In this document: positions 1,756 through 18,950 of the stretch, piece by piece
Position numbering within the stretch: position 1 is the first letter of the stretch
Layout of the letters: each line of letters begins with the position of its first letter
Notes under the pieces: model-generated
The model's input: the letters and a program-made list of their open reading frames with translations, nothing else
What the model was told of the DNA's origin: nothing
The model's database searches: none
Position numbers and translations under genes: made by a program
From: a virus
Strand: one strand, 5' to 3'
DNA: 22,693 nt
IMG/VR virus record: IMGVR_UViG_3300010158_000344
Span: 1 to 22,693 of that record

Positions 1756-1877
1756 TGGGCGAGTGAGCGAGTCGGTGAGTGAGCCAGTGCGCCAGTGCGC
1801 CAGTGAGCCAGTGAGCCAGTGAGCCAGTGAGTGAGGCTGCCGATGGCTCTCTGACCTATTGGCTCACTGGCTCACTT
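1756..1877. repeat. GTGAGCCA inverted repeat, copy A
   Basis: This is the longest copy of the octamer element. The left arm has many tandem GTGAGCCA or GTGCGCCA units (about 1771-1835). A short centre follows, then a right arm CTGACCTATTGGCTCACTGG and onward to about 1877. The arms are complementary and would form a hairpin in the minus-strand transcript. It fills the spacer between the structural gene ending at 1888 and the gene starting at 1755. Confidence 0.9.
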
Positions 1878-1887
1878 TGGCGCCGCG

Positions 1888-2268
1888 TCAGAACGCTTCG
1901 GCGACGATGACGTTCACATCGGCTGCGGTCGTGTTGGCGCGCACCTTGATGATGATGTTTGCCGCCACTCGCACCGGGCCGAAGAACTCGCCGGGGTAGA
2001 TGCGATACGGATATGTCACGCCGTCATCGGATGTGACCTCCACGTAGTCGGTGGTGTTCTGGTTCCGCATCAGGACCACGAACTGGTTGGCGGGGTCCAC
2101 GGACCCGACCGGGATGGCGGTTTTGGTGCCGGCGGCAAACGTGGTCACGTCGCCGATCATGTTGGTCCCGGTCGTCATGTCAGACGACTTCGTGCTGGTG
2201 GCGTTGGTGACGGTCGAGCCGCCCTTCGACACGCTGAGTTTTGCAGTCCAAGCGATTTCTGAGGCCAT
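1888..2268 (-). CDS. Small beta-rich phage structural-like protein
   Basis: A 126-aa protein starting at ATG 2268 and ending in TGA. It is rich in Thr, Val and Ala, with alternating hydrophobic residues and the segment YPYRIYPGEFFGPVRV at about residues 85-100, which suggests a beta-sandwich. There is no signal peptide or membrane segment. Such small beta proteins in phage late regions are often decoration, tail-tip or fibre-associated proteins, but I cannot assign a family. It lies upstream of the large gene at 1-1755 and downstream of an A-rich intergenic repeat. A structural role is inferred from composition and position. Confidence 0.75.
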   Translation of the reverse strand: MASEIAWTAKLSVSKGGSTVTNATSTKSSDMTTGTNMIGDVTTFAAGTKTAIPVGSVDPANQFVVLMRNQNTTDYVEVTSDDGVTYPYRIYPGEFFGPVRVAANIIIKVRANTTAADVNVIVAEAF

Positions 2269-2290
2269 GGTTTAGGTGGGTTGTGGTGAG

Positions 2291-2326
2291 AAAAATGAGA
2301 AATACTGAATGAAAAATGAGAAATGG
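2291..2326. repeat. A-rich intergenic repeat, copy 1
   Basis: An AT-rich island in GC-rich DNA. The 26 bases 2291-2316 match 5881-5906 at all but one position, including the 16-mer AATACTGAATGAAAAA. It lies just upstream, in the direction of transcription, of the gene starting at 2268. No function is evident. Confidence 0.8.
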
Positions 2327-2333
2327 CCGAGGG

Positions 2334-2531
2334 TCAGCTCCACACGGCGTCTTGGCTGCCGCCGCTGCGGCCGCCGCCGCCGCCGGTGTTGCGCCGGGTC
2401 AGCGGGAGGAAAGTCCCGCGCGGGGTGCGCAGGTAGCTCGAGGTCCGGTCGAATGCCGGGCGGGCCGCGCGCGTGGTGGCGCGAAGGCGGGCGAGCGGGT
2501 TGGCAGCGAGGGGGATGGGGTCGATGTTCAT
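2334..2531 (-). CDS. Small basic hypothetical protein
   Basis: A 65-aa ORF beginning MNIDPIPLAANPLARLRA. Its ATG lies 3 bases after the SSB stop codon, as expected for a translationally coupled gene. It is rich in Arg and Thr and has a Gly-rich tail (GGGGG near residue 52). I recognise no domain. The tight coupling and otherwise unexplained 200-base stretch favour a real gene, but low-complexity GC-rich DNA of this length could stay open by chance. Confidence 0.5.
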   Translation of the reverse strand: MNIDPIPLAANPLARLRATTRAARPAFDRTSSYLRTPRGTFLPLTRRNTGGGGGRSGGSQDAVWS

Positions 2532-2534
2532 GGT

Positions 2535-2960
2535 TCAGAAGGGGACGTCGTCGTCATCGATGGGCGTGCCTAGGACGGGGGCGGCGGGAGCGGAGGCCGA
2601 GGCCGCGGGCGCGGCGGCGGTGCGCTCGGCGGCGTCGATGAAGGAGAAGGACTCCATGACCACGACGGTGCGCGAACGCTTGGCGCCGGTGGTCTTGTCG
2701 TCCCAAGTCTCGAGGTGGAGCCGGCCCTCGACCAACAGCGGGCGACCTTTGCGCAGGAACTTGGCCACGGTCTCGGCTTGGCGGCCGAAGGCTTTCACAT
2801 CCACGAAGGTGACCTCTTCGCGCTTTTCGCCGGTCTCGGTGGTCCAGTTGCGATTGATGGCGAGGCTGAATTTGCCGACGGCGGTGCCCTTGGGCGTGTG
2901 CGTCAGGGCGGGGTCGCAAGTCAGGTTGCCGGCGAGGATTACTTTGTTGAAGGAGGCCAC
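2535..2960 (-). CDS. ssb: Single-stranded DNA-binding protein
   Basis: A 141-aa OB-fold protein of bacterial/phage SSB type. It binds ssDNA during replication and recombination and recruits partners through its acidic tail. The N-terminus reads ASFNKVILAGNLTCDPAL, the typical opening strands. The middle includes KGTAVGKFSLAINR and VTFVDVKAFGRQAE. An Ala/Pro-rich linker leads to the tail DDDDVPF, the canonical SSB C-terminus. The start is taken as GTG at 2960. The open frame runs further upstream, but that extension is repeat B and antisense of the neighbouring gene. Its place between tail genes is odd, since ssb is normally an early replication gene. Confidence 0.93.
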   Translation of the reverse strand: MASFNKVILAGNLTCDPALTHTPKGTAVGKFSLAINRNWTTETGEKREEVTFVDVKAFGRQAETVAKFLRKGRPLLVEGRLHLETWDDKTTGAKRSRTVVVMESFSFIDAAERTAAAPAASASAPAAPVLGTPIDDDDVPF

Positions 2961-3005
2961 GGTGGGGAGAGTGGGCGAGTAAGCCGGTGAGTGAATGAGC
3001 CAGTG
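2961..3005. repeat. GTGAGCCA repeat, half element B
   Basis: Contains GTGGGCGAGTAAGCCGGTGA followed by GTGAATGAGCCAGTGG, i.e. only the left arm seen in the full elements. No inverted right arm precedes the stop codon of the neighbouring gene at 3010. It occupies the whole spacer upstream of ssb. Confidence 0.8.
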
Positions 3006-3009
3006 GGGA

Positions 3010-3927
3010 CTACGCGACGATCTTGCGTTGGGCGAAGAGGCCGAGACGCTCGGCGAACCAGTACTCGAGGCGGTAGTGCCAGCGGCCGTCGGCCAGCTGG
3101 TCGCCCTCGGGGGCTTTCTTGAGCCAGTAGCCGGCGGCGGTGGCACCGGCGCGGAGCTGAGCATCAATGGTGAGCGCGGCCATCTCGACTTGCAGCTCGG
3201 CGGGGATGGTGGGCTCTTCGGTGATGAGCTTCACCGTGGAATAGATGTTGTCCACGTTGGTGAAGAGCGGCGCCAGCGGCCTCGTGGTCGGGGGCGGCAC
3301 GACCGTGGTCGGACCGTAGAGGATGGCGGAGGTCAGCAGCGGTTGGTTGGGCACGATGCCCCGGGCAAAGGCGGGGAAGATGCGCGACAGCTGCAGCACG
3401 GGCACGCTGATGAGCTCGGCCTCGACGCCGGCGGCCAGGTCTTTGACCAGGTCCTCGAAGATGGCGGTCTCGATGCCGTAGGCCGAGACGGTGGCGAAGA
3501 TGGTGGCGAGGTCGAGCGGGTGGATGGTGCCGGCGTCGTCGGTCCAGGTGCGCTCGCCGCGGAGGATGGCTTCGATGTCGGCCTTGAAGTTGGCCTTGCC
3601 CGCGGGGTCGGTGAGCTTGGCCATCTCGACCGCGACCTCGTCGTTGAGCCAGAGGCTCTGCTGGATCTCGTTGAACCTCACGGACCAGTTGTCCACCACG
3701 CTGACGACGGGGGCGGCCCAATGCAGCAGGGCATCGGGGCTGGTGCCCTCGGGGTCGACGGAGTAGGCGAGGCCGGAGGCTTGCAGGGCGTTTTCCCACG
3801 AGGACAGGTCCGACTTGGGCACCCGCTTGGAGTGCGCCACTTGGCGGCCTTCGCGCGGGTCCCAGTGGATGGTGGGGAACAGGTCGAAGCTGGTGGCGGT
3901 GCCGCGGCGTTGGGGGGAAGTGGGCAT
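3010..3927 (-). CDS. Phage protein of unknown function, tail region
   Basis: A 305-aa protein from ATG 3927 to TAG at 3010-3012, with balanced globular composition. It contains a Pro/Thr-rich segment VVPPPTTRPLAPLF near residue 220 and a basic-aromatic C-terminus (GRWHYRLEYWFAERLG). There is no signal peptide, membrane helix or recognised motif. It follows the tape-measure-like gene, where distal-tail or baseplate genes usually lie, so a tail-tip role is possible by position. Repeats B and C flank it on both sides. Confidence 0.8.
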   Translation of the reverse strand: MPTSPQRRGTATSFDLFPTIHWDPREGRQVAHSKRVPKSDLSSWENALQASGLAYSVDPEGTSPDALLHWAAPVVSVVDNWSVRFNEIQQSLWLNDEVAVEMAKLTDPAGKANFKADIEAILRGERTWTDDAGTIHPLDLATIFATVSAYGIETAIFEDLVKDLAAGVEAELISVPVLQLSRIFPAFARGIVPNQPLLTSAILYGPTTVVPPPTTRPLAPLFTNVDNIYSTVKLITEEPTIPAELQVEMAALTIDAQLRAGATAAGYWLKKAPEGDQLADGRWHYRLEYWFAERLGLFAQRKIVA

Positions 3928-4027
3928 GGGGAGTGGGCGAGTAGGTCAGTGAGCCAGTAAGCCAGTGGGTGAGGGGGCGCTGGCGCCAGCCCTCTGACCT
4001 ACTGGCTCACTCGCATACTGGCTTTCT
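3928..4027. repeat. GTGAGCCA inverted repeat, copy C
   Basis: The left arm GTAGGTCAGTGAGCCAGTAA pairs with the right arm CTGACCTACTGGCTCACT. The centre GGCGCTGGCGCCAGCC is itself nearly palindromic. It fills the spacer between the tape-measure-like gene and the next gene. Confidence 0.9.
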
Positions 4028-4031
4028 TGCT

Positions 4032-5096
4032 TCATGGCCGGACGCGGTTGTGGGCGGCGCGGAGGAGGCGGATCTCAGCGAGGGTGTGCTCGGCCACGCT
4101 CAGGTGGCGGCGCGAGATGTCCACCATCGGGTTGCCGGCGCCGCCTACGAAGAGCCCGATTTTCGAGTAGCTGTCGCCGGTGTCGATCTGGTTGCCGCCG
4201 TTGGCGAGCTTGCCGGAATTGGCAGGGAGCACCGTGCCTTTGAGCTTCTTCTTTGCGGTGGCGATCTCCTCGGGGGTGAGGGCGGCGCTGGGGGTGTTGC
4301 TGCCGTCATCGGCCATCTCGCCGTAGACGGAGCGGGCTCCGCTGAAGATGCCGCCGAGGATGGGGACCTTCTCCAGGCCGATGTCTTGCTGGCCGGCAGT
4401 GCGGCCAATCACCCGGGACCAGAAGCCGGCTGCGGGCGCGGCGGCCACCAGCAGGCGCCGGCCGAGTTCATCGATGGCATCCTGCGCGGCCGACAGGTCC
4501 TTGATGTTCTGGTCGTCGAGCAGCTTGACGGGGCCGAGGTTTTTGAGCGTGGCGAAGGTGGCGGCCAGGCGGTCGCCTTTTTTTCCGGCGAGGTCGAAAA
4601 GATCGGCCTGCTCCTGCACGCCGATGCCAGCGGCGCTGGCGGTGTCGTAGAGCTGCTTGAGCAGGTCGAGGTTGCTCATCTGGCCGTCGGCCAGCTTGGC
4701 GAGGCCCACGCCGTAGCGGGCGAAGAGCTGCTGCTCCTTGCCATCGCCGCTGAGAGCTTTCTGCCGCGCTTGGCCGATGTGAGCCAGCGCCTTGGCGATG
4801 GTCTCGAACTCGAGGCCATTGCGACCGCCGGCGATGGTGAGGCGCTGCACGTCTTCGGTGGCGATGCCCAACTGGTCGGAGAGGTCGCCCACGTTGTCGC
4901 CGTAGGCGATGGTTCGGCGGCCCAGCTCACCGATGGTGCCGACCACGGCGGCGAACCCAAACGAACTCTTGAGCTTGGACCCGATGTCTTTGCTCCACGA
5001 CCCGACGAGGTCGCCGGAGAATTTGCCGGCAGCGCTCTTGGCGGAGGCAAGTCCGCGGACGAAGCCGGAGCCATCCAGGCCGAGGCGGGCGAACAT
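4032..5096 (-). CDS. Short tail tape-measure-like protein
   Basis: A 354-aa protein starting MFARLGLDGSGFVRGLASAK. Ala/Gly/Leu-rich helical text with segments such as LSDQLGIATEDVQRLTIAGG follows. This pattern is typical of the N-terminal part of tail tape-measure proteins, which set siphovirus tail length and leave the virion with the DNA. A hydrophobic patch (GFAAVVGTIGELG) lies near residue 47. The open frame extends to 5618, but that part is an Arg-rich shadow of the upstream gene. GTG at 5102, overlapping the upstream stop, is an alternative start. The protein is short for a tape measure. Position directly after an assembly-chaperone-like gene supports the call. Confidence 0.65.
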   Translation of the reverse strand: MFARLGLDGSGFVRGLASAKSAAGKFSGDLVGSWSKDIGSKLKSSFGFAAVVGTIGELGRRTIAYGDNVGDLSDQLGIATEDVQRLTIAGGRNGLEFETIAKALAHIGQARQKALSGDGKEQQLFARYGVGLAKLADGQMSNLDLLKQLYDTASAAGIGVQEQADLFDLAGKKGDRLAATFATLKNLGPVKLLDDQNIKDLSAAQDAIDELGRRLLVAAAPAAGFWSRVIGRTAGQQDIGLEKVPILGGIFSGARSVYGEMADDGSNTPSAALTPEEIATAKKKLKGTVLPANSGKLANGGNQIDTGDSYSKIGLFVGGAGNPMVDISRRHLSVAEHTLAEIRLLRAAHNRVRP

Positions 5097-5098
5097 GT

Positions 5099-5875
5099 TC
5101 ACGCGGCGGCCTCCTGCGGTGCCGCGGCCGCGGCGCGGCGGAACGATAGCAGCTCTTCGTAGGCCTCGCGGGCATCCTGCAAGTTGGCGGCCTCCTCCGC
5201 GCCCCCGCTCGATTTCCACCGGGACTCGGCGTCGATGATATGGGCCTTGGCGATGACCAGCTCGTGGTCGAGGCAGGCAGCCTGGGCGCTGAGGGCGTTG
5301 ACCTCCTGCTCGGCGGCGTCGTCGAGCAGTTCGATGCGGCCTTCGACTTCCCAGAAGGTAAAGTAGTCGAAGAGCGCGCGACCCAGGGGCAGGGCGATGG
5401 CCTCGGAGGGCGAGTAGCCGAGCTTGGCCTGGAGCACCACCCGGACGTGCTCGAGGAACGGTGCGCCCCGCGGCGCGGAACGCTCGCCCCGCCCTTCGTC
5501 GGCCAGTTGGCGGAACTCGGGGCAGGCGGAGTGGTGCTCGCAATACTCGCGGAAGAGCGCCAACGCGCGGACCACGATGGCGAAGGCGGCGGGCGCGCCC
5601 TGGGTGATGCGGGTCCACGCCAGTTGCCCGCGGATGGAGCTGGTCCAGAGCCAGACGCGCAGCGCGAGCCGTCGCGAACCCATCAAGCGCTGGAAATCAC
5701 CGGGCGGGAGCGTGCAGACGAGCACGGCCACAAAGAGCGCCCCGGCATCGTCCACGGTGCGCAGGCCGAGGCTCTCGAGCGTGCAGGCGTGGCCGAGGGT
5801 GAAGGGGCGAAGCTCCTGTCCCAGGACCCGGAACGGGCGGGGGATGTGGCAACGCGTTTGGAAGTCGGAAAGCAC
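5099..5875 (-). CDS. Possible tail assembly chaperone
   Basis: A 258-aa helical protein starting at GTG 5875, with no signal peptide. Its early part contains RPFTLGHACTLESLGL. The middle holds LGYSPSEAIALPLGRALFDY, and the C-terminus is an Ala/Glu-rich helix. It lies between a tube-like gene and the tape-measure-like gene and overlaps or abuts the latter's start. That is the position of lambda G/GT-type tail assembly chaperones, which coat the tape measure before tube assembly. I did not find a convincing slippery heptamer for a frameshifted product. The call rests on position and general character, not on a diagnostic motif. Confidence 0.5.
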   Translation of the reverse strand: MLSDFQTRCHIPRPFRVLGQELRPFTLGHACTLESLGLRTVDDAGALFVAVLVCTLPPGDFQRLMGSRRLALRVWLWTSSIRGQLAWTRITQGAPAAFAIVVRALALFREYCEHHSACPEFRQLADEGRGERSAPRGAPFLEHVRVVLQAKLGYSPSEAIALPLGRALFDYFTFWEVEGRIELLDDAAEQEVNALSAQAACLDHELVIAKAHIIDAESRWKSSGGAEEAANLQDAREAYEELLSFRRAAAAAPQEAAA

Positions 5876-5877
5876 TT

Positions 5878-5914
5878 TGAAAAAATGAAAAATACTGAAT
5901 GAAAAAGGAAAAAG
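5878..5914. repeat. A-rich intergenic repeat, copy 2
   Basis: The second copy of the A-rich family. Bases 5881-5906 match 2291-2316 at 25 of 26 positions. As at copy 1, it sits immediately before the start of the next gene (GTG at 5875). Confidence 0.8.
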
Positions 5915-5941
5915 GTTTGTTCCTTTTGCCTTCGGTCCGCT

Positions 5942-6376: not shown

Positions 6377-6401
6377 AAGGTTTTATCGGGTTGGGGAACG
6401 G

Positions 6402-7172: not shown

Positions 7173-7175
7173 TTC

Positions 7176-7210: not shown

Positions 7211-7215
7211 AGAGC

Positions 7216-7524: not shown

Positions 7525-7637
7525 GGCGTCCATGGTGGCGGCGCGCGGCCGGTGGCCTCGGGGAAGTGGGCAAGTGAGCCAGTGAGCCAGTGAGTGAGGC
7601 TGGCGCTGGCTCACTGGCCTACTGGCTCACTGGCTTT
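7525..7637. repeat. GTGAGCCA inverted repeat, copy D (long form)
   Basis: Begins with GCGTCCATGGTGGCGGCGCG, the extension shared with copies E, H and J. It continues with GTGAGCCAGTGAGCCAGTGA on the left arm and ACTGGCTCACTGGCT on the right arm. The stop codon and last six or so codons of the lipoprotein gene ending at 7611 lie inside the right arm. Confidence 0.9.
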
Positions 7638-7868
7638 CTCGGCAATCTTGTCCGCCACCGCGCGGCGGTAGCGCAGGTAGAGGCTGTCGGTCATGTACCA
7701 GCCATCCCTCGGCGGCGTGTAGGCGGTGCCGGCCTTGAGCCTCACCACGGCGTCGTCACTGGGGACGATGACGATCCGGTGGGCGCAGCCGCTCCAGAGC
7801 ATCGAGGTCAGCAAGGCCATTGGCAGAAGCCTCTGGCGCAAGTCCTGGCGGGGTCGTGGCAATGTCAT
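7611..7868 (-). CDS. Putative outer-membrane spanin lipoprotein (Rz1-like)
   Basis: An 85-aa protein whose ATG (7868) lies inside the preceding gene in another frame, with an overlap of 113 bases, as in Rz/Rz1 pairs. A basic start and hydrophobic stretch (LLPMALLTSMLWSGC) lead to a lipobox-like end with Cys28. The mature part has GTAYTPPRDGWYMTDSLYLR. O-spanins are lipoproteins that join an inner-membrane partner to fuse the membranes at lysis. Tryptophan at the -3 position makes the lipobox imperfect. The C-terminal residues SEPVGQ are encoded by repeat D, which also gives the stop. Confidence 0.6.
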   Translation of the reverse strand: MTLPRPRQDLRQRLLPMALLTSMLWSGCAHRIVIVPSDDAVVRLKAGTAYTPPRDGWYMTDSLYLRYRRAVADKIAEKASEPVGQ

Positions 7869-8183: not shown

Positions 8184-8185
8184 GT

Positions 8186-8824: not shown

Positions 8825-11800
8825 TCAAGTTCCAGTGTCACCGGCGAGCACGAACGCGGTTGAACTGAGCCCGTACAGCGTCACCGCGGCGTACTGGCCG
8901 AACGTCTTGGTTTGACTGTGGGCGTTGCTGACGGTAGTTCCGGACGCCGAGAACGTCACCTGGCCCGCGCCCTTCTGGATGAACGTGCATGAGAACCCGG
9001 CCGAAAGCGTCGGGACCGTCACCGTGATGGCCGCGGCGTTGCTGAGTGTGACGACCTTGCCATTGTCGGTAGACAGGACGGTGTAGGTAGTTCCGGTCTG
9101 GGTGTTCTCTGTCACGGTGATTAGTGTGGATGCAATTGAACCAGACGAAGGGGTTCCGAGAGCGCCGCCATTGACCACCGGAGCGCCCGCGCTGCCGACG
9201 TTGACCGCGAGCGCAGTCGCCACTCCGGTTCCGAGGCCAGTGAGAGTAGCCGCCGCGGCCGTGACCGTGATGTTCGCGGTGCCGTCGAACGACGTGCCGT
9301 TGATCGTGCGCGCGGTAGCCAGCGCGGTGGCCGTCGCGGCTCGCAGGTTGGCGACCTCGGTGGTGCTCGACACGGCCAGAGGCGCGGTTCCCGTCGCGAC
9401 CGCGGAGATTAATTGATCCGTAGTCGAGAGACCTCGGGCGATTGTCAGCGTCTTCGTCACACCCGACCCTGCAACCGCACCGACTACAATCGGCGTCACA
9501 AACGCCGGGCAGTTTGGACCAAATCCCCAGAGCGCAATCCCGCCTGCGCTCGTAACGTCAGAAATATAAACGTCAAGGTAGGAATACTGCGTGCCGGATT
9601 CGCAAGTTATCCTTGCCTGTGTGATGATTTGACCGCCAAAAATGCCGGCTTTTGTGCAATTTAATGTTCCGGTGTTGTTGTACCCGGCCACTTCCCATTT
9701 CAGTTCCAACTCGTCATATTTGTTGTTATATCCAGCAATCACTCGAAGAGTGCCTCCGCCAGTCGCAGATGCGGCAGGAGCAAACACGCGATACCATCCG
9801 ATTGTGGTCGGCGTGAATGATGTGTATTTTTCAACCAGCGCACTTGCGGTGACGGAACCAGCGGAAACCAAGGACGTAGCCGTGGCCGCCCCAAGCGCCG
9901 GCGTGACCAGCGTTGGCGAGGTGGACCGGACGAACGTGCCGCTGCCTGTGGTGCCTGCCGCGGCAAGGTTTGTGAGGTACTGGTTTGCCGGCTGCAAGCT
10001 GGCCGCATGCAGCCCATCAACCATGTCGGCGTTGAGGTTGGCGTTGAGCGTGGTGCTTGCCACCGAAACTGGAGAGGTTCCGGTCGGGACCGCGGAGATC
10101 AACTGGTCGGTGGTGGACAGCCCCCTGGCGACCGTCAGCGTCTTGGTCGTACCGCTCCCCACAACAGCGCCAACGACAATCGTTCCGACTAGTGGTGGAC
10201 TATTTGGCCCAAATGCGTAGAGGTAGATTGGTGACGCGCTGGTTACATCTGAAACGTAGATGTCAAGATACCCGTACTGGTCTCCCGCGTTGCCCGTGAT
10301 GCGGACCTGCGAGACAATCGACGAGCCGTACTGCAGCACCCTTGTGACAGCCAATGTTCCTCCGTTATTGTAACCGCTGGACGCCCATTGGATCTCGGTG
10401 TCGTCTTGCTTGTTGTTGTAAGAACCATAGATCCGGAGGATGCCGCTCCCGGTCGCGGTCGATACCGAAGTGAAAACCCGGTACCATCCAACAGTGGTCG
10501 GTGTGAACGAGCTTATCTTCTCGTAAAGCGCAGAGCCTTGGATGGTGTTTGTGGCGTATATTGAACCGGCCAGAGTATTTCCCAGCGTCGTTGTTCCTGC
10601 GGCGAGAGTGCTAAACGCGCCCGTGTTCGGGGTGCCGCTACCAATCGGGCCAGGGCTACGCATCATGGCAAGAACGGCGGCAGGACTTGCCACAGAAGAC
10701 CAAGCGCCCCGAAGAATTGGCAGGCCGTTGGTCAGAAGGTGCGCCGCGACCGCGGTATATCCCGAGGCGTTCAGGTGGAGCCCATCGTACCGGAGCGAAG
10801 TCGGTGGAACGTCGTGACCGTAATCAATCACGTCTCCGGCCAGCGTGGAATCGTAGCGGCTGACCAGATAGGACCGGATGTCCACGTAGTTCGAGCCATA
10901 GATGGACGCCAGCATCCCGTTGAGGTTGGTGATGGTCTGGTAGTTTGTGCCTCCCTTCCATTCTGAGGCGGTGTCTCCGTTGAGCACCGACAACACCAGG
11001 TACCGGTTGGTGTTCCCGACGGTGGCGAGGTTCGCCACCATTGCGGCTACGTCCGCCAGCACGGTATTGGTCGCGGTGTAGTTGTTCCGGCCCGCCCAGA
11101 TGATGGTTGGCTGGAACCATGTGTTCGACCCCGCGGTTTGACGGGTTCGGATCTGGGTGGAGGTTTCGCCGTCCACGCCGCCGTTGGCCACGTAGAAACC
11201 TGAGTAGAGAGCGAGCGCACCGGGGTAGGTGTTGCTGACAACGCTGATGGGATAGCTGTGGGTCAGTGAATCGCCCCAGGTCTGGACTGCCATCCAGTTG
11301 TCGAGGTTGGTCGAACCGGGGATGTCGATTTCCCGGCGCGCGACTAGGCGGTCCGGTGCCAGCGAGGATAGCGTGGAGGAGGCGAGCCCCGAAGACACGC
11401 CGTTGGCGGTGTCGAGTTTGCTGGCTCCACCGGCAGCGACAGCCGCATCGAGCGCGGTCTTGTTGACCACGCTATTGCCGGTGGTCGGGACGGTGGCGGT
11501 GGTGAGGCCCACGGCTACGCCGTTGGTGGCTTCGAGTTTGGTCGCGGCCGCGATGTAGGCTGCGGTGCCAAAGGTTCCGCCCGCGCCACTGACCAGGCTG
11601 GAACCTGTCACGCCGCTCGCAAGGGTCGAGCCGGTGAGCGTGCCCGCCGCGGCGGTGACTGTGATGGCGGCGGTGCCGTCGAACGACACGCCATTGATGG
11701 CGCGCGCCGTTTGGAGCGCCGTGGCGGTGCCGGCGTTGCCCGTGATGGTGGTCTGGTCGCCGGTGTTCACTCCCGAGCTGGTCCCGGAGAAGGTGCCGCT

Positions 11801-12208
11801 CTGGGTGGCCAAGGTGCCGAGCCCAAGGTTGGTGCGCGCCGTGGCCGCAGATGCCAGGTCGGAGAGATTGCTCGCCTTGGCAAGCGCCAGAGCTGCGGCG
11901 GCATCCAGCGCGGTCTTGTTGACCACGGCGTTTCCGTTGGTCGGGACGGTGGCGGTGGTGAGGCCCACGGCCACGCCATTGGTGGCGTCGAGCTTGGAGG
12001 CGGTGGCGGCCGCCGCAAAATTGGTGGCAAGCTGCGCAATCGAGACGCCGCGAAGCGCGGGGAAGGTGGAGTCATCCAGCGCGATGCGGCCATTGGTGGG
12101 GATGGTGATGGTGAGCGGGAGGTCCTTTATTCGCGTGCCTTGCGCGCGCGCGGGGACCGCGACCGCAACTGCGAGGAGGAGGAAAAAAAGCGGACGAAGG
12201 CAGCGCAT
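8825..12208 (-). CDS. Tail fibre/adhesin with SGNH (GDSL) esterase domain and signal peptide
   Basis: An 1127-aa protein from ATG 12208. Residues 1-22 are a Sec signal peptide (RPLFFLLLAVAVAVPARA). Fibre-type repeats follow, including NGVAVGLTTATVPT at about 78 and 230 and ATALQTARAINGVSFDGTA at 162, recurring at about 960. Residues 305-500 are an SGNH hydrolase: GDSLT (Ser314), Gly344 in NGG, GRN (Asn375) and DGLH (Asp475, His478). Residues 561-720 and 791-950 are a collinear duplication. The C-terminus (VVTLSNAAAITVTVP, GAGQVTFSASG) is a common fibre end. Such esterases deacetylate surface glycans. The signal peptide is unusual for a virion protein. An upstream in-frame extension falls in repeat E and is rejected as the start. 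Confidence 0.85.
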   Translation of the reverse strand: MRCLRPLFFLLLAVAVAVPARAQGTRIKDLPLTITIPTNGRIALDDSTFPALRGVSIAQLATNFAAAATASKLDATNGVAVGLTTATVPTNGNAVVNKTALDAAAALALAKASNLSDLASAATARTNLGLGTLATQSGTFSGTSSGVNTGDQTTITGNAGTATALQTARAINGVSFDGTAAITVTAAAGTLTGSTLASGVTGSSLVSGAGGTFGTAAYIAAATKLEATNGVAVGLTTATVPTTGNSVVNKTALDAAVAAGGASKLDTANGVSSGLASSTLSSLAPDRLVARREIDIPGSTNLDNWMAVQTWGDSLTHSYPISVVSNTYPGALALYSGFYVANGGVDGETSTQIRTRQTAGSNTWFQPTIIWAGRNNYTATNTVLADVAAMVANLATVGNTNRYLVLSVLNGDTASEWKGGTNYQTITNLNGMLASIYGSNYVDIRSYLVSRYDSTLAGDVIDYGHDVPPTSLRYDGLHLNASGYTAVAAHLLTNGLPILRGAWSSVASPAAVLAMMRSPGPIGSGTPNTGAFSTLAAGTTTLGNTLAGSIYATNTIQGSALYEKISSFTPTTVGWYRVFTSVSTATGSGILRIYGSYNNKQDDTEIQWASSGYNNGGTLAVTRVLQYGSSIVSQVRITGNAGDQYGYLDIYVSDVTSASPIYLYAFGPNSPPLVGTIVVGAVVGSGTTKTLTVARGLSTTDQLISAVPTGTSPVSVASTTLNANLNADMVDGLHAASLQPANQYLTNLAAAGTTGSGTFVRSTSPTLVTPALGAATATSLVSAGSVTASALVEKYTSFTPTTIGWYRVFAPAASATGGGTLRVIAGYNNKYDELELKWEVAGYNNTGTLNCTKAGIFGGQIITQARITCESGTQYSYLDVYISDVTSAGGIALWGFGPNCPAFVTPIVVGAVAGSGVTKTLTIARGLSTTDQLISAVATGTAPLAVSSTTEVANLRAATATALATARTINGTSFDGTANITVTAAAATLTGLGTGVATALAVNVGSAGAPVVNGGALGTPSSGSIASTLITVTENTQTGTTYTVLSTDNGKVVTLSNAAAITVTVPTLSAGFSCTFIQKGAGQVTFSASGTTVSNAHSQTKTFGQYAAVTLYGLSSTAFVLAGDTGT
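9359..9838 (-). repeat. Fibre internal duplication, block 2
   Basis: Encodes residues 791-950 of the fibre. It aligns without gaps to residues 561-720, sharing SFTPTT-GWYRVF, GYNNK, SDVTSA, FGPN and ARGLSTTDQLISAV. The module is probably a beta-sandwich binding domain, which is inference. Confidence 0.85.
10049..10528 (-). repeat. Fibre internal duplication, block 1
   Basis: Encodes residues 561-720 of the fibre, the partner of block 2 at an offset of 230 residues. The blocks are diverged in the middle but strongly conserved at both ends, which indicates an old duplication followed by divergence or local conversion. Confidence 0.85.
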
Positions 12209-12227
12209 GTCAACCGATGTGCGCGCG

Positions 12228-12342
12228 CGTCCATGGTGGCGGCGCGCCGGCGAAGCCGGCGAAGAAGTGAGCAAGTGAGCCAGTAGGTCAGAGAGCCAGC
12301 GCCAGCCTCACTCACTGGCTTTCTGGCTCACTGGCTCACTTT
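12228..12342. repeat. GTGAGCCA inverted repeat, copy E (long form)
   Basis: Starts with GCGTCCATGGTGGCGGCGCG and a GCCGGCGAAGCCGGCG hairpin. The left arm GTGAGCAAGTGAGCCAGTAG and right arm CACTGGCTTTCTGGCTCACT follow. The gene ending at 12328 takes its last codons (VSQ) and TGA stop from the right arm. Confidence 0.9.
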
Positions 12343-13125
12343 CACACGGGCCTTGCGCGCGATGGCGCGGAGGGTCTGCTCGAGCTGCTTCGGCAGCAGC
12401 TGCCGGCGGACTTTCAGCGCGGCATCGATGATGCGCAGCTCGCGGCCGGCCTCTTGGATGTGGGGCACGTTGTTGCCCAGGGTCATCACCGGCGCGGCGG
12501 CGCTGCCCTCTTCGGTGTAGACGCCATCGCCACCGAGCGCGCGCACGTAGGCGGGGCGGTGACGGGAAGCCAGCCCTACGCCATCGGCGGCGGCGTTCCA
12601 GCCGCTCTTGCCCAGGCCGACAAACCGGAGGCGGTCGGCCAGGAACTCACGGCGGGCGGCTTCGTTGTGGACGAAGATACCCGCGGCAGTCTTGGCCACG
12701 CGGCCGCGACTATTGCGGGCGGCGCGATGCAGGGCGCGGGTGGGCTCGTAAGCGGCGGTCTCCTTCCAGTGGCCGCGGGTGAGGAGCTGGTTGGCCAGGG
12801 TGATGTCGCCCGCTTTGACGGCGCGCGCGATGGCGGCGCCAAGCGTTCCCTTGGCCTTGCTCATGGCGTCGAGCTGGGCTTTCCCCTTGAACAGCCGGCG
12901 CAGGTCCATCCGGACGCGCGATTGGCCGATCTTGCGCTGCTCGGTGTGGGATTGCTGGCGGGCGCCCTTGAAAGTGTTGGGCGGAGTGAACTTGATGAGG
13001 TCGGCCACGAGCGGGCGGCCGAGGTCTTCGCGCAACGCGCGCCGCAGCTCCTTGCCGGTGCCAGCCGCGAGGGCGCGGAGGGCGTTCTCAAGCTGGGCGA
13101 TGGCGACCTGGAAGCCGATGTTCAT
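12328..13125 (-). CDS. Putative tail completion/minor tail protein (HK97 gp10 or lambda Z type)
   Basis: A 265-aa basic protein from ATG 13125. It begins with a helix (QLENALRALAAGTGKELRRA) followed by LREDLGRPLVADLIKFTPP. This resembles the N-terminal helix and 'P' turn of HK97 gp10/lambda gpZ-type proteins, which finish the tail or the head-tail interface. The rest is Arg/Lys-rich without a recognised catalytic motif. It follows the joining-like gene and precedes the fibre. Its stop codon is supplied by repeat E (ends KVSQ). It is longer than gp10 proteins, so the family is tentative. Confidence 0.55.
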   Translation of the reverse strand: MNIGFQVAIAQLENALRALAAGTGKELRRALREDLGRPLVADLIKFTPPNTFKGARQQSHTEQRKIGQSRVRMDLRRLFKGKAQLDAMSKAKGTLGAAIARAVKAGDITLANQLLTRGHWKETAAYEPTRALHRAARNSRGRVAKTAAGIFVHNEAARREFLADRLRFVGLGKSGWNAAADGVGLASRHRPAYVRALGGDGVYTEEGSAAAPVMTLGNNVPHIQEAGRELRIIDAALKVRRQLLPKQLEQTLRAIARKARVKVSQ

Positions 13126-13131
13126 GATGTG

Positions 13132-13229
13132 GCGAAGTGAGCCAGTAGGTCAGAAAGCCAGTGGGTCAGAGAAGAGCGCCAGCGTCACTCACTGGCTCTC
13201 TGGCTCACTCGCCTACTTCCGTTCACTGG
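13132..13229. repeat. GTGAGCCA inverted repeat, copy F
   Basis: The left arm GTGAGCCAGTAGGTCAGAAA and right arm CACTGGCTCTCTGGCTCACT flank a short GCGCCAGCG centre. A further half unit, TTCACTGGCTTATG, carries the stop codon of the gene ending at 13223. Confidence 0.85.
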
Positions 13230-13540
13230 CTTATGCCATTGAGTCCGAAGACGATGCCCGACGGGTCGTCGGTGATGTCGACGATGACGTAGGTGTGGCC
13301 GTTGCACAGGAGGCGTCCGCCGGTCTTGGGCAGCACGATGCCGGCAAACTGGGCCTTGGCCGCGGTGAGCAGGGAGTCGCACTCGATGCCGAAGCCGCCA
13401 TCGGCCAGCTTGGTGCGGCGCCGGTGGGCATCAAGGATGCCGACGAACAGGGTGTCGGTGCCGGCGAGCTTGAAGGATTGGCCGCAGACGGAGGCAGCGG
13501 CTTCGAGCGAGGTGGCGCAGAGGGTGTCGAAGGCGTTCAT
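13223..13540 (-). CDS. Putative head-tail joining protein (lambda gpFII-like)
   Basis: A 105-aa protein from ATG 13540. An N-terminal helix (FDTLCATSLEAAASV) leads into a beta-rich body with DTLFVGILDAHRR, FGIECDSLLTAAKAQFAGI and GHTYVIVDITDDPSG. The pattern of an amphipathic helix, an 'x-G-x-x-D' strand, a mid 'dsLL' segment and a final G-x-x-Y-x-V strand fits the phage attachment/joining (FII) family. Those proteins join finished heads to tails. Position right after the coat gene agrees. The last residues ISQ and the TGA come from repeat F. No SD sequence is visible, and the terminator at 13551-13590 lies just upstream. Confidence 0.6.
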   Translation of the reverse strand: MNAFDTLCATSLEAAASVCGQSFKLAGTDTLFVGILDAHRRRTKLADGGFGIECDSLLTAAKAQFAGIVLPKTGGRLLCNGHTYVIVDITDDPSGIVFGLNGISQ

Positions 13541-13550
13541 GGGGAGAAGG

Positions 13551-13590
13551 AAAAACCCCGCCCCTCGGGGAGCGAATCCGAAGGGCGGGG
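13551..13590 (-). terminator. Rho-independent terminator after the coat gene
   Basis: On the minus strand, CCCCGCCC (13590-13583) pairs with GGGCGGGG (13563-13556). An inner TCGG/CCGA pairing strengthens the stem, and a run of five T (13555-13551) follows. A perfect 8-bp GC stem plus a T-run is a standard intrinsic terminator. It would lower expression of genes after the coat protein. Confidence 0.85.
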
Positions 13591-13599
13591 CGGTGCGGC

Positions 13600-13695
13600 G
13601 GTGGGTGAGTGAGCCAGTGAGCCAGTGAGCCAGTGAGTGAGTGCGGACGGCGTCAGCTTTCTGGCCTACTGGCTCACTTGCCCACTCACCCACTT
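13600..13695. repeat. GTGAGCCA inverted repeat, copy G
   Basis: The left arm is three or more tandem GTGAGCCA units (about 13605-13640). A GCGGACGGCGTCAGC centre follows, then the right arm CTGGCCTACTGGCTCACTTG and CCCACTCACCCAC. It lies between the coat gene stop (13698) and the terminator, so it is transcribed as the 3' end of the coat mRNA. Confidence 0.9.
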
Positions 13696-13697
13696 GC

Positions 13698-14864: not shown

Positions 14865-14915
14865 GGTGGTCTAGGTGTTGAGTATCGACGGGAGTGGGTG
14901 TGGGCTGGGTGGTGG

Positions 14916-15410
14916 TCAGTCCGCGAGCGTGCCGCCGGATGCGAAGAACGACTTCGCTTCCCACGGTTTCATCTCCCGGTATTGGGCCAACGTCTGGGGT
15001 TCGGGCTTGCCGCTGCCGGACGGGGTGCTGGCGCCGGCGATGGGCTTGATGCCGTGCTTGGAAAGGGTCTCGGCCGCTTCGCGGGCAGCGGCGGTCTTCA
15101 GCGTGGCCGCGGCGATGGCGGCGGGGTCGGCGCCGGCGGCGAGCAGGGCGACCGGGTCGATGCCGAGCGCGCTCAGTGCGGCGAGGAACGAGGTGTCGCG
15201 GGTGGCCGCAATTTGCAACATGGCGTCCCGGGCTTGCAGCGCCCGGTCCTTGGTGGCGATGTCGGCGGCGAGCTGGTCGCGGGTGGCGGATTCACCGACG
15301 AGGAAGTCGGTGTTGCCGGCGGCGTAGGCGGCGTCGACCTGCTCGGCGCTGATACCAGCAGCCGCGAGCGCGGTGAGGACGAAGGCGGGCTTTTTGGAGA
15401 AAAGGCTCAT
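14916..15410 (-). CDS. Putative scaffold or head-assembly protein
   Basis: A 164-aa helical, Ala-rich protein from ATG 15410 (MSLFSKKPAFVLTALAAAGI). Residues about 40-70 (ATRDQLAADIATKDRALQAR) could form a coiled coil. A Pro/Ser/Gly linker then leads to a C-terminal TLAQYREMKPWEAKSFF helix. Short helical proteins between the head protease and coat genes are commonly scaffold or protease-substrate proteins that are lost on maturation. I see no decoration-type beta domain. The role is inferred from position and composition. Confidence 0.55.
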   Translation of the reverse strand: MSLFSKKPAFVLTALAAAGISAEQVDAAYAAGNTDFLVGESATRDQLAADIATKDRALQARDAMLQIAATRDTSFLAALSALGIDPVALLAAGADPAAIAAATLKTAAAREAAETLSKHGIKPIAGASTPSGSGKPEPQTLAQYREMKPWEAKSFFASGGTLAD

Positions 15411-15453
15411 GTGGGGTTTGGTGGCGGTGTGCCGGTTACGAATGGGAAGTGCG

Positions 15454-15580
15454 GGCGTCCATGGTGGCGGTGCGGCGCGAAGCGCCGGGGAAGTGGGTGA
15501 GTGAGCCAGAAAGCCAGTGAGCCAGCGGACTGCGCGCCTTCTCTGACCTACTGGCTCTCTGGCTCACTTTCACACTGGCT
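15454..15580. repeat. GTGAGCCA inverted repeat, copy H (long form)
   Basis: Starts with GCGTCCATGGTGGCGGTGCG and a GCGCGAAGCGC hairpin. The left arm GTGAGCCAGAAAGCCAGTGA and right arm CTGACCTACTGGCTCTCTGG, then CTCACTTTCACACTGGCTTT, follow. It fills the spacer between the protease and the scaffold-like gene. Confidence 0.9.
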
Positions 15581-15581
15581 T

Positions 15582-16406
15582 TCATCGGGCCGCGACAATC
15601 TGGGCGAGCAGGTCGGCGAGGTCGGTCACGACGTCGTCGGCCAGGTTGGCGTCCACGGCGGCGTGACCCATGAAGGTCTGGCCTTGTAGCACGGCGTCGT
15701 CCACCAGGCCGCGGCCGGTGCGGACATCGGCGATGAACATCCCGTAGATGGTGTCGACGTTGCGCTGGAAGCCGGCCACGTCGTCGGCAGTGATGGGGGC
15801 GCCCGCGATGCCCGCGGCTTTTTGGGCGCCAGCCTTCACGAGTTCGAGCCGGTAGCCGTCCTTGGCCCAGGCGGCGCTTTCATCCACCAGGGCGCAGTAG
15901 ACGCCGACGCTGCCGACGGTGGCGCTGGTGGTGATGGCGAAGCGGTCGCAGGCACTGGCAATCCATTGGGCGGCGGAGCACGCCTGCGAATCGGTGAAGC
16001 CGAACACGGGCTTGATGTCGGCGCTGCGGCGCACGGCGGCGAAGGCCTCGGGCACGCCGGTGCAGGTGCCGCCCGGGGAATCGATGAAGAGCACGCGCTC
16101 GCGGACGCGCGGGTCGGCGGCGCTGGCGGCCAAAGCGGGCGCCAGCGTGTCGAGGTCGTACCCGCCGCACATGGTCTCCATCGAGGAGAGGTGCTTGCCG
16201 ATGATGCCCCGCACCGGGATCACGGCGATGCCATCGGGCGAGATGACGTAGGCAGGTTCGGGCGCCGGCATCGGTTCGTCTTCCCCCATGGCCGCCCGGG
16301 GCCGCCCGGCCGCCGCGATAACCGCGGCATGGATGGCGTGGACGGTGGACGGCAGCGCGGCCCACGGGGTGCTGCGGATGGCGGCGAGGATTCGGGGGAA
16401 GCGCAT
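15582..16406 (-). CDS. S49-family head maturation protease (lambda C-like)
   Basis: A 274-aa serine peptidase of the SppA/S49 clan, which in phages cleaves scaffold and head proteins during prohead maturation. Residues 52-70 give the first strands (AYVISPDGIAVIPVRGIIG). DSPGG at 109-113 is the oxyanion-region motif. Ser144 in QACSAAQW is the probable nucleophile and Lys196 in AGAQK the probable general base. The 52-residue spacing equals that of the Ser/Lys dyad of bacterial SppA. There is no membrane segment, as expected for phage forms. It lies between the portal and the scaffold-like gene. The start follows repeat I directly with no SD sequence. Confidence 0.9.
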   Translation of the reverse strand: MRFPRILAAIRSTPWAALPSTVHAIHAAVIAAAGRPRAAMGEDEPMPAPEPAYVISPDGIAVIPVRGIIGKHLSSMETMCGGYDLDTLAPALAASAADPRVRERVLFIDSPGGTCTGVPEAFAAVRRSADIKPVFGFTDSQACSAAQWIASACDRFAITTSATVGSVGVYCALVDESAAWAKDGYRLELVKAGAQKAAGIAGAPITADDVAGFQRNVDTIYGMFIADVRTGRGLVDDAVLQGQTFMGHAAVDANLADDVVTDLADLLAQIVAAR

Positions 16407-16408
16407 AA

Positions 16409-16506
16409 AGTGAGTAGGTGAGTGGGCGAGTAAGCCAGTGAGCCAGTGAGTGGGTGGGCGCGATTGGGTGTTTTCTGACCTACTGGCTCACTGGCTCACT
16501 TGCCCA
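16409..16506. repeat. GTGAGCCA inverted repeat, copy I
   Basis: The left arm GTAAGCCAGTGAGCCAGTGA and right arm CTGACCTACTGGCTCACTGG flank a GGGCGCGATTGGGTGTTTT centre. The portal gene takes its last codons (QVSQ) and TGA stop from the right arm. Confidence 0.9.
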
Positions 16507-18074
16507 CCCGCCACCGGCGGGTTTTCCGATGGGTCATCGGCCAGGGTGGTGGCGGCGGGCTGGCTGGCGGCGCCGGGGTTGTAGACGTGCTCGATGTCGA
16601 CGCCTTCTTCCTCGGCGATGCGCTGGGCGAGCGCGGCGGCGCGGGCGTTGGCGCGGAAGTGGTCCTCGAGGTCGCCCTCGCCGCTCTCGGTCACGTAGCT
16701 GGCCACGGTCTCGAGCCCCATGGCGATGTTGAGCCGGCGGTTCTCTTGGTCGCGGCCGACATCGACGCCGAAGGTGGCGGGCAGGGAGAAGCCGATGTTG
16801 TCCCAATCGTCGGCCATGGGTAGCTCGCCGCGGGCCATGTAGCGCGCGGCGGCGTAGAGCACGGCGGCGCGGAAGGGGCTCCACAGCTGCTCTTGTCGCT
16901 GCTCCACGCTGCGCTTCACCTGGGAGACGAGGCCGCGGACGCTGGCGCCGCCGATGCCGCGGAGGTCGTGCATCTCGATGGGCCAATCCATGCCGCGATG
17001 CGCGCTGCGGGCGATGTGGTCCATGAAACTCTCCCAGGCCGCGCCGGGCCGGTTGCCCTCGAGGCTCTCGATCTTGTTGCCCGACCCGGCGCGGAAATAG
17101 CGGATGAGGCCGTCCTCGATGACTTTGACGGAGGTATCGACTTTTGACGCATCGGCGGTGCCGCCGATGGTGCGGTTGGCGGTGTAGGCGGCGGAAAGGT
17201 CGGCGCGGCCGGTGTCGTTGTACTCGACCATCGCGTGCTTGGAGAAGGCCTTGACGCCGGTCTTCTCGGCCTCGCGCATCTCGTGCATGTCGTACCAATC
17301 CAAGATGCCGTGGCAGATGGTGGGCACGCCGCGGCCTTGGCTGAAATACTGGGGGTCGTAGACGTGCTGGACGGCGGAGGCGGGGAGGAAATTGTAGGCG
17401 GTGCCGTAGGGGATGACTCCGTAGCCGGCATCGGCGGGCAGCAGGTTGTAGGCGAGCGGACGGTCGAACGGGTCGTAGACGATGCCGTTGAGCATCTTCA
17501 GCCCCTTGTAGTTTCCCTCGGTGACCAGATTCTGGCCGCCGGGGGAGCCGATGCGATGGCTCTCGATGAGCTGCAACCGGGGGCTGCCGTTCTCGCTCTC
17601 GGTGAGCAGGATGAAGAAATCGCCATCGCGATCGAGCGCGAGGGAGCCGATGCCCACGTCGCACTGGAAATCGTAGGGGCGGCCCCGTAGGTCGGCATTG
17701 CCAAGCCAGCTGCGCTGGATGCGCTGGTTGAAGGCGGCCTTGTACTTCGCATCTTGCCCGAGGTACTGCGGCACCCAGGCCTTGCCCACGGCGTAGGCGC
17801 GCTTTTCGCGGATGGCTCCGCTCACCTGGCCGACGCGGCTGTAGATGAATCGGGCATCGCTGAGCATGGCGCGCTGCTGGTACTGGCTGACCATGCGCGC
17901 GGCGTCGCGGTCGAGCTTGGGGCGCCAGCCGCGGGTGCCGCTGTCTTCGCTGTTGGGCACCAGGCCGGTGCCATAGCCGCCGCGGTAGGGTCCGAGGTCG
18001 GTGGCCTGGATGGCCGGGCGCGGAGCCACGGCGGCGGGCGGTGCGGGTCGCTGGCGTGTGCGGGTGCGGGACAT
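16488..18074 (-). CDS. Portal protein, lambda (gpB) family
   Basis: A 528-aa protein from ATG 18074 forming the dodecameric ring at the head vertex through which DNA enters and leaves. The N-terminal part has TDLGPYRGGYGTGLVPNSED and LDRDAARMVSQYQQRAMLSD. The middle has LALDRDGDFFILLTESENG and SHRIGSPGGQ, and later LSAAYTANRTIGG and GMDWPIEMHDLRGIGGASVR. This series is typical of lambda-family portals. The start lies 4 bases after the gpW-like stop. The frame extends 16 codons further upstream into that gene, which is rejected. Repeat I supplies the stop. The C-terminal tail is Ala/Pro-rich and acidic. Confidence 0.92.
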   Translation of the reverse strand: MSRTRTRQRPAPPAAVAPRPAIQATDLGPYRGGYGTGLVPNSEDSGTRGWRPKLDRDAARMVSQYQQRAMLSDARFIYSRVGQVSGAIREKRAYAVGKAWVPQYLGQDAKYKAAFNQRIQRSWLGNADLRGRPYDFQCDVGIGSLALDRDGDFFILLTESENGSPRLQLIESHRIGSPGGQNLVTEGNYKGLKMLNGIVYDPFDRPLAYNLLPADAGYGVIPYGTAYNFLPASAVQHVYDPQYFSQGRGVPTICHGILDWYDMHEMREAEKTGVKAFSKHAMVEYNDTGRADLSAAYTANRTIGGTADASKVDTSVKVIEDGLIRYFRAGSGNKIESLEGNRPGAAWESFMDHIARSAHRGMDWPIEMHDLRGIGGASVRGLVSQVKRSVEQRQEQLWSPFRAAVLYAAARYMARGELPMADDWDNIGFSLPATFGVDVGRDQENRRLNIAMGLETVASYVTESGEGDLEDHFRANARAAALAQRIAEEEGVDIEHVYNPGAASQPAATTLADDPSENPPVAGGQVSQ

Positions 18075-18078
18075 GGCG

Positions 18079-18393
18079 TCAGGGGAGGACGAGCACGGTG
18101 CGCTGGCCGATGGGCTGGCCATGGCTGCCGCTGACGAAGACGGACGCGCTGGGGATGGGCTGGGTGGCGTCGTCGACGTAGCTCATGGCGTGGACGACTT
18201 CGGCGATGTCGGCATCGATGTTGCGACCGCGGGTGTCGTAGGTGAAGGCGCGGCCATTGACGCTGGCGGAGGTCATGCCGCCGCCGCCGGCCGCGCCGGC
18301 GAGCTTGGCGGCTTGCAACGTGGCAAGGCGCGTCTGCAGCTGCACGAGTGTGCAGCCGAAGAAGGGTCCGAAGGGGACGGTCGCGTATGCCAT
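18079..18393 (-). CDS. gpW-like head-tail joining protein
   Basis: A 104-aa protein from ATG 18393. A helix LVQLQTRLATLQAAKLAGAA is followed by SVNGRAFTYDTRGRNIDADI and a further helix AEVVHAMSYVD. The arrangement of helix, 'v-x-G-R-x-x-x-Y' hairpin and helix matches gpW-type joiners, which plug the portal for tail attachment. A tail of about 30 residues is extra compared with lambda gpW. The order large terminase, W, portal, protease matches lambda. The ATG overlaps the stop of a 7-codon frame beginning ATGGACGCC in repeat J (TGATG), which may allow coupling. Confidence 0.65.
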   Translation of the reverse strand: MAYATVPFGPFFGCTLVQLQTRLATLQAAKLAGAAGGGGMTSASVNGRAFTYDTRGRNIDADIAEVVHAMSYVDDATQPIPSASVFVSGSHGQPIGQRTVLVLP

Positions 18394-18408
18394 CAACGGA
18401 CGCGTGCG

Positions 18409-18474
18409 GCGTCCATGGTGGCGGCGAAGCGCCGCGGGGGAGTGGGCGAGTGAGCCGGTGAGCCAGTGGGTCAG
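18409..18474. repeat. GTGAGCCA repeat, left half element J (long-form start)
   Basis: GCGTCCATGGTGGCGGCGAA followed by GCGCCGCGG, then GTGAGCCGGTGAGCCAGTGG. Only the left arm is present. The matching right arm type appears as half element K on the other side of the HNH gene. Confidence 0.85.
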
Positions 18475-18477
18475 GAA

Positions 18478-18765
18478 TCACTCCCACCGGTCTTTTGCCT
18501 TTGCCTCGGCCTTGGTCTGCCACTGCATGTTGGCCGGGATGTCTTTTCCACCGCGCTTGAGCGGGATGATGTGGTCGACCACATAGCCAGGCCGACCGTG
18601 TGGATACCCGGTCTGCCGCATGAACTGCCGCTTGGCGGCGGCGCTGCGACGGATGCGGCCGTCGACCGCGCGCGGAACTCCGACCGCCCGGGGCGAGGCA
18701 TCCACCGGCGACGCGGACGCCAGGAGCAGGGCCGCCAACAACCATGCGGAAAAACTTTTCATCAT
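18478..18765 (-). CDS. Small exported HNH-type nuclease-like protein
   Basis: A 95-aa protein from ATG 18765 (ATG 18762 is also possible). Residues 1-24 are a signal peptide (FSAWLLAALLLASASPVDA). The body RRSAAAKRQFMRQTGYPHG leads to PGYVVDHIIPLKRGGKD, NMQWQT and EAKAKDRWE. This is the bacterial HNH-like family with a DH (Asp64-His65) and NMQWQ (Asn79) core, often with signal peptides. The third His of classical HNH is absent (Lys/Asp there). It sits between large terminase and gpW, where cytoplasmic HNH nucleases are common in cos phages, but export is unusual. The half repeats J and K flank it, suggesting an inserted cassette. Confidence 0.75.
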   Translation of the reverse strand: MMKSFSAWLLAALLLASASPVDASPRAVGVPRAVDGRIRRSAAAKRQFMRQTGYPHGRPGYVVDHIIPLKRGGKDIPANMQWQTKAEAKAKDRWE

Positions 18766-18913
18766 CTGCAAAGAGAAGAGCAACCACTACGCAGGTTGCA
18801 ATCCGCGCCGCTGGCTTTTCGACCCGATTCCACAAGGGGTTCAGCGGTCCCGCCACACGACAGGTGGGGCGGGAAAAGGGGTCATCATGTCGTGGTCATG
18901 GTCGTTGTGTTCT
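18766..18913. other. Spacer upstream of the HNH gene with a palindrome
   Basis: No gene is supported here. A palindrome TCCCGCC...GGCGGGA lies at about 18848-18873. On the minus strand the T-run precedes the hairpin instead of following it, so it is not an intrinsic terminator. A 15-codon frame (MMTPFPAPPVVWRDR) is too short to support. Confidence 0.5.
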
Positions 18914-18950
18914 TCACTGGCTCACTGGTCACTGGCTCACTTGCTCACTG
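18914..18950. repeat. GTGAGCCA repeat, right half element K
   Basis: CACTGGCTCACTGGTCACTG followed by GCTCACTTGCTCACT. Only the right arm is present. It overlaps the end of the terminase gene and supplies its last codons (VSK) and TGA stop. Confidence 0.85.

Follow-up and report, generated by a model that had tools for sequence, protein, structure and literature searches.

The window analysed here is a complete virus record of 22,693 bases with a G+C content of 66%, and is probably a fragment of a phage genome. Its genes encode the terminase large subunit, a lambda-type portal, a head maturation protease, the major head protein, a head-tail attachment protein, tail proteins and a single-strand DNA-binding protein. 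All of them run on the minus strand, which makes the transcript the reverse complement of the letters shown. The virus likely infects a Verrucomicrobia bacterium. Repeats of 105-118 nt (families D7 and D8) lie within a long tail-fibre-like gene (8825-12274), a region that varies strongly among relatives.

The octamer GTGAGCCA has 33 exact matches on both strands of the 22,693 bases, with 1.02 expected, a number reached by none of 100 dinucleotide shuffles. A sequence-only reading of the window had listed eleven intergenic copies of an inverted repeat based on this octamer. All eleven were found at the places listed, each between genes, eight with two arms (1756, 3928, 7525, 12228, 13132, 13600, 15454 and 16409) and three with one (2961, 18409 and 18914). 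Octamer hairpins are referred to as type A, and hairpins of the heptamer AAAAGGC, found in relatives, as type B. The features are as follows.

1756..1887, minus strand: two-armed type A, z -4.5, occupying the whole stop-to-start spacer
2961..3001, minus strand: one-armed type A, sense 3' arm only, immediately upstream of the start of the SSB-like gene
3928..4031, minus strand: two-armed type A, z -5.5
7526..7540, minus strand: conserved motif CGCCACCATGGACGC on the downstream side of the hairpin; further copies at 12227, 15455 and 18409
7562..7640, minus strand: two-armed type A, z -6.2
12262..12345, minus strand: two-armed type A in reversed orientation, z -5.5
13126..13222, minus strand: two-armed type A in reversed orientation, z -3.4
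13551..13592, minus strand: canonical intrinsic terminator (terminator proper 13576-13557), after the type A hairpin behind the major head protein gene
13597..13697, minus strand: two-armed type A behind the major head protein gene, z -8.4
15488..15581, minus strand: two-armed type A, z -6.4
16407..16512, minus strand: two-armed type A, z -8.6
18430..18470, minus strand: one-armed type A, sense 3' arm, adjoining an HNH-like ORF
18914..18950, minus strand: one-armed type A with the sense 5' arm, behind the stop of the terminase gene

The octamer hairpins are real and unusual. All eight two-armed elements fold as sense RNA, as had been proposed from their complementary arms (z -3.4 to -8.6 against shuffles), while the three one-armed elements have a folding z near 0. 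Seven of the eight were recovered by an ungapped inverted-repeat scan that returned nothing in five shuffled windows. Elements are present in 11 of the 15 spacers of at least 60 nt, in agreement with the claim that nearly every spacer longer than about 60 bases holds one, and in 11 of the 12 spacers of at least 80 nt; the twelfth (21827-21908) overlaps another inverted repeat. This different, long repeat (21766-21897, arms of 36-58 nt) lies upstream of the terminase genes, is retained in the relative L013 at 171-302 and is possibly a packaging or other site. Some details of the sequence-only reading needed correction. At 7525, 12228, 15454 and 18409 its start positions fall on a different conserved motif, GCGTCCATGGTGGCG, and the octamers proper start near 7565, 12266, 15492 and 18437. 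The late operon that it took to be a single unit contains the canonical terminator at 13576-13557, which is retained in the relatives L015, L012 and L157. No Rfam covariance model matched in the window, L015, L157, L084 or L079.

The motif CGCCACCATGGACGC also occurs in L015 (2277, 5254, 8591 and 15529) and L157 (60, 3368 and 6291). It follows hairpins of either type, often behind a small GGCGCTTCGCGCC-type hairpin, and opens very short ORFs (e.g. MDARTSHS*, or MDAARVR* overlapping the next start), which recalls start-associated sequences.

Each full element consists of a head arm, a loop and a tail arm. The head arm, ([GTGGGCGA][GTRAGCCA]n[GTGAGTGA]), ends in GTGAGTGAG and is followed by the GC-rich loop; the tail arm, (TCTGACCTAC[TGGCTCAC]n[TTGCCCAC]), ends in GTAGGTCAGA. 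The two are distinct in every full element and are not mirror images, and two of the eight two-armed units (12228 and 13132) are reversed relative to the other six. Upon comparison of the arms, the mean score was 21.8 between same-side arms of different units and 17.8 between both arms of one unit. Because same-side arms are most alike, pairing stems from the common word and the units share an asymmetric ancestor; the copies are related by descent in both orientations. In the phage, pairing the two arms of a unit gave no better match than pairing arms across units (permutation p 0.98), so the base pairs do not covary. Covariation between arms had been suggested as a check, and its absence from the phage elements is an outcome that the sequence-only reading itself had named as speaking against its proposal. 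The arm comparison also indicates that phage arms do not correct each other, and quasipalindrome correction was not seen in the permutation test. Host units showed a weak arm-to-arm correspondence (p 0.015).

Relatives were collected by the major head protein and by the octamer. L015, L011 and L013 are 93-96% identical to the window over the structural genes, and in these phages six of the eight word hairpins are built of the heptamers AAAAGGC/AGAAGGC, with a different loop. Among relatives 85-96% identical, the spacers that hold a hairpin in the window carry the unrelated AAAAGGC hairpin, half of one, or none, and the flanks match where type A in the window faces type B in the relatives. The repeat is thus shared at homologous spacers, one of the points on which the original proposal depended, with hairpins there of type A or type B. 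A further relative, with 98% major head protein identity to the window phage, is formed by contigs C84, C164 and C180 of the metagenome-assembled genome (MAG) G081, and is referred to as the G081 phage; its contigs could have been co-binned rather than belonging to a phage that infects that host.

Three spacers lie outside the L015 coverage: s1756, with type A in the window and empty in the G081 phage; s2961, where the half A is matched by a one-armed type B in the G081 phage, which has no SSB gene there; and s3928, with type A in the window and only the 3' arm of type B in the G081 phage. At s7525 the window has A and L015, L012, L164 and the G081 phage have B, and L016 has no hairpin. Spacers s12228 and s13132 both hold A in the window and L012, and B in L015, L157 and the G081 phage. 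At s13600, A in the window is joined by B in L015 and L012, and L157 and the G081 phage have B only. Type A at s15454 is found in the window and L006, type B in L015 and L013, and an inverted B in L157 and the G081 phage. The window, L015 and L006 all have A at s16409, with word numbers in L015 and L006 differing in one arm; L157 has only the 3' arm of type B there and the G081 phage half a B. At s18409, where the window has half an A, L015 and L013 have a complete type B hairpin, and the half unit at s18914 is retained in L015 and in the G081 phage, where two more ORFs follow.

All seven comparable spacers are occupied in both the window and L015, with a change of type at five, and L012 is a mixture of A and B hairpins. 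No A or B hairpins were found in L016 and L017 (85-86% head protein identity; 16 kb and 4 kb), which have the standard terminator alone behind the head gene. More than 12 type B units are present at different spacers of L015, L012 and L157, several with a common loop; within G081, exact matches to this loop were found on phage contigs only. The B unit of L015 at s15454, 102 bases long, is inverted as a whole in the G081 phage: identity between the two units is 92% when one of them is reverse-complemented and 74% in direct orientation, and the flanks are fixed. In orthologous chromosomal spacers (L079 and L084) the loop is flipped. The presence of unrelated words at the same gaps of sister viruses suggests that whole hairpins are copied, flipped and swapped as units.

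In another pair of orthologous chromosomal spacers (L142 3267-3406 and L148 3300-3500), the outer AAAAGGC arms are conserved and, on visual inspection, the inner TCAAAGC segment appears to run in opposite directions; the orientations were not separated by global alignment. A more distant phage (L019, 57% head protein identity) has one hairpin of another octamer, CAGGCCAG/CAGGCCGG, at 13199-13297.

A strict hairpin pattern was searched in one genome per species, and true tandem-word units were judged from the matched sequences. Matches came from Verrucomicrobia MAGs and from the Bacteroidota Sandaracinomonas limnophila. The suggestion that the element might be shared with the host was borne out, since octamer hairpins are present in Verrucomicrobiia chromosomes. 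Type A was found in four of the 50 genomes of one Verrucomicrobiia family (that of G001), and all four, G081 among them, also carry type B, which was looked for in these four A-bearing genomes of the family. The A-bearing genomes outside the family (G002 and G003) are without type B. A widespread Verrucomicrobia element was ruled out, the strict pattern being present in 1 of 236 genomes of the class. Chromosomes with A or B also hold hairpins of many other words (TCAAAGC, CAGGAGA, AATTTCG, CAGGAAAA and others). The word hairpins of AT-rich S. limnophila (L102-L111) include GTGAGCCA, so this word is common to different phyla. The phage carries 7-8 word hairpins per 22.7 kb, compared to about 11 per 400 kb of chromosome, an approximately 13-fold higher density; other phage loci contained one word-like hairpin in 289 kb, approximately 100-fold below the window.

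We give about even chances to the explanation that these are dispersed intergenic word-hairpin repeats of a host type, copied as units at the DNA level into intercistronic gaps and turned over whole. The constant feature would be the architecture rather than the sequence: a single 7-8 nt word repeated in tandem in two opposed arrays, with a short unique loop between them. Entire units of 80-110 bp (head arm, loop and tail arm) would pass as copies from one intergenic gap to another within the phage and, presumably, from phage to host or the reverse. Slippage could add or remove words in one arm, exchange or template switching between the arms could invert the whole unit, and an arm may be lost or a unit replaced by one of another word. 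In the phage, intercistronic gaps would be where units accumulate, as the only places that tolerate insertion, and the units may later act as joints for gene exchange. The copies related by descent, with distinct head and tail arms and in both orientations, the A/B replacements at the same spacers, the inverted unit, the empty and half sites, and the two word families in one Verrucomicrobiia family with a phage relative in one of its MAGs are the observations on which this explanation builds. The lack of an orientation bias in the chromosomes also favours it. What we infer beyond them is the enzyme that makes the copies, in which direction units were transferred, and that no RNA function is required; neither a clear target duplication nor a copying enzyme was found. 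The density in the phage and the persistent occupancy in L015 speak against unit copying, as they resemble selection for having a hairpin.

Such selection is the basis of the strongest alternative, in which intercistronic RNA hairpins are selected in the phage and a stem in the late mRNA protects, cuts (in the manner of RNase III) or insulates the cistrons. Any strong stem would do, so that the hairpin stock of the host would supply interchangeable parts. The z values of the eight stems (-3.4 to -8.6), the hairpin kept despite a change of type at five of seven spacers between the window and L015, and the density relative to other phage loci and to the chromosome all fit this role, and the density together with the full occupancy in L015 keeps a phage-specific function a candidate. 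We consider it rather unlikely all the same. L016, with 85% major head protein identity, has no hairpins in 16 kb, the G081 phage has empty and half sites, and the head gene already has a standard terminator behind it. Selection on the sense strand through G-U wobble was ruled out, as folding was better on the antisense strand in 17 of 24 cases, and the phage arms do not covary. In the chromosomes, hairpins in co-directional, divergent and convergent gaps (25/10/8) follow the proportions of all gaps (104/38/29). Without a gene-orientation bias the chromosomal copies are not 3'-end elements. Of the 43 classified hairpins 10 are in divergent gaps, the share that the gap counts predict, and a role as terminator or 3'-end element in the host was rejected. 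Non-word hairpins in an unbiased 400 kb sample were most frequent in convergent gaps. No T run was reported after the long type A stems, unlike the separate terminator at 13576-13557, and a partial stem at 13196-13178 reaches only a weak terminator pattern. In view of the lack of orientation bias, wobble bias and covariation, the mRNA end protection and pausing put forward by the sequence-only reading are not supported as a general role, and neither is termination.

It is improbable that the elements are translation leaders in which a pyrimidine-rich 3' arm before the start codon is active, for example in S1 binding, under modulation by the purine-rich 5' arm. Among one-armed copies, the arm that remains is the 3' arm ahead of a start codon at seven sites and the 5' arm alone at one, although seven against one is a small sample. 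Leaders of the likely host, in data from L170-L189 (G185, Verrucomicrobiia), are 58% pyrimidine at -20 to -1 and have no purine (Shine-Dalgarno-like) bump, and the pyrimidine arms of the hairpins face start codons. Related TAACTGA heptamers also lie just ahead of start codons in Beggiatoaceae (PMC4679880). At least four spacers, however, have another hairpin and a CGCCACCATGG motif, or a terminator, between the arm and the start, and units are found between convergent genes too.

Equally doubtful is movement as REP-like non-autonomous elements, with a host transposase of the Y1 (RAYT) type that would act on the hairpins in single-stranded form. The elements are indeed intergenic, palindromic, dispersed and in both orientations, and Y1 transposases occur in the genomes that bear them. 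Yet Y1_Tnp is present in 47 of the 50 family genomes regardless of repeat content, against four with type A, and none of 10 Y1 loci (G001, G185 and G081) has A or B units directly at its flanks; the one A unit nearby is about 800-900 bp away, at a locus common to two genomes. The stem foot has no fixed GTAG/CGTC tag: it consists of GTGGGYGA/GTGGGCAA words in type A and AAGGC words in type B, and GTAG appears only within GTAGGTCA words. Two unrelated word families would moreover require two specificities. For a MITE, which would be recognised by a target-site duplication and by terminal repeats of its parent transposon, the empty site s1756 of the G081 phage showed no clear duplication, and a parent was not found.

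The hairpins are possibly recombination joints, with cargo genes between or beside them. In L012 a metallophosphoesterase gene (PF00149; 6976-8079) lies between two type B hairpins at s7525. An ORF at 18478-18783 of the window (minus strand), with a weak, below-cut-off match to HNH endonuclease (PF01844, E 0.002), is located between two half A units and is absent from L015 and the G081 phage. The latter has an insert of about 1 kb with two ORFs beside the half unit at s18914 (L210 527-1582), one with a P-loop resembling a nucleotide kinase, as judged by eye. Breakpoints specific to hairpins were rejected: identity steps occur at hairpin spacers and also at the hairpin-less spacer 14865-14915, so the breakpoint test was not distinguishing.

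The usual interpretation of intergenic hairpins is as terminators or mRNA stabilisers, with a single family in each genome. In the phages studied here, which are nearly identical, two unrelated families replace each other in the same gaps, and the likely host has both. This exchange offers a natural before-and-after experiment on hairpin function, on copying and on whether phages carry hairpins between genomes. More tentatively, and with the balance of probability against it, the architecture may define a class of mobile DNA, opposed-tandem-word hairpins that spread as units through the gaps of phages and hosts, with unrelated words competing for each site; a phage lineage could then exchange the word in most of its intercistronic hairpins. 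Shared non-coding repeats also help to link uncultured phages to Verrucomicrobia hosts.

A published description of the element was not found in the literature searched, which left most subscription journals outside its coverage; the string GTGAGCCAGTGAGCC had no match there and AAAAGGC an unrelated match only. REP/BIME elements and GTAG/CGTC palindromes, known in Verrucomicrobia from Opitutus terrae (PMC3733652), are likewise intergenic, dispersed, stem-forming bacterial repeats in both orientations. The present arms differ in being tandem 7-8 nt words without a GTAG/CGTC foot, no associated RAYT was found, several unrelated words occur per site, and the units are carried in bulk by a phage. 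The STRR of cyanobacteria and the TAACTGA repeats of Beggiatoaceae (PMC4679880) are tandem degenerate 7-mers, intergenic, patchy over phyla and often before start codons, and the phage and host arms are likewise intergenic arrays of degenerate 7-8 nt units in tandem. Those repeats are described as direct repeats, with a single inverted set reported for TAACTGA (PMC4679880), whereas full units here are two opposed arrays as a rule. Template switching between inverted repeats has been described as causing spacer inversion (PMC8604942). Template-switch inverted repeats (PMC8604942, PMC8794818) are alike in that the segment between the arms inverts, and differ in that the phage unit arms here are not homogenised and the units are dispersed. 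The ESAS of Cluster K mycobacteriophages (PMC3203893) are also inverted repeats of phages, positioned in gaps ahead of start codons, with an adjoining second short conserved motif and with arms that differ between subclusters. They have unique arms of 17 bp and spacers of 4-13 bp, lie in the non-structural half of the genome and are conserved by gene family; the elements described here have tandem-word arms, lie mostly among structural genes, carry wholly different words per spacer and are shared with the host. REP elements, tandem heptamers and ESAS each share some of the features described, and each fails on at least one defining point.
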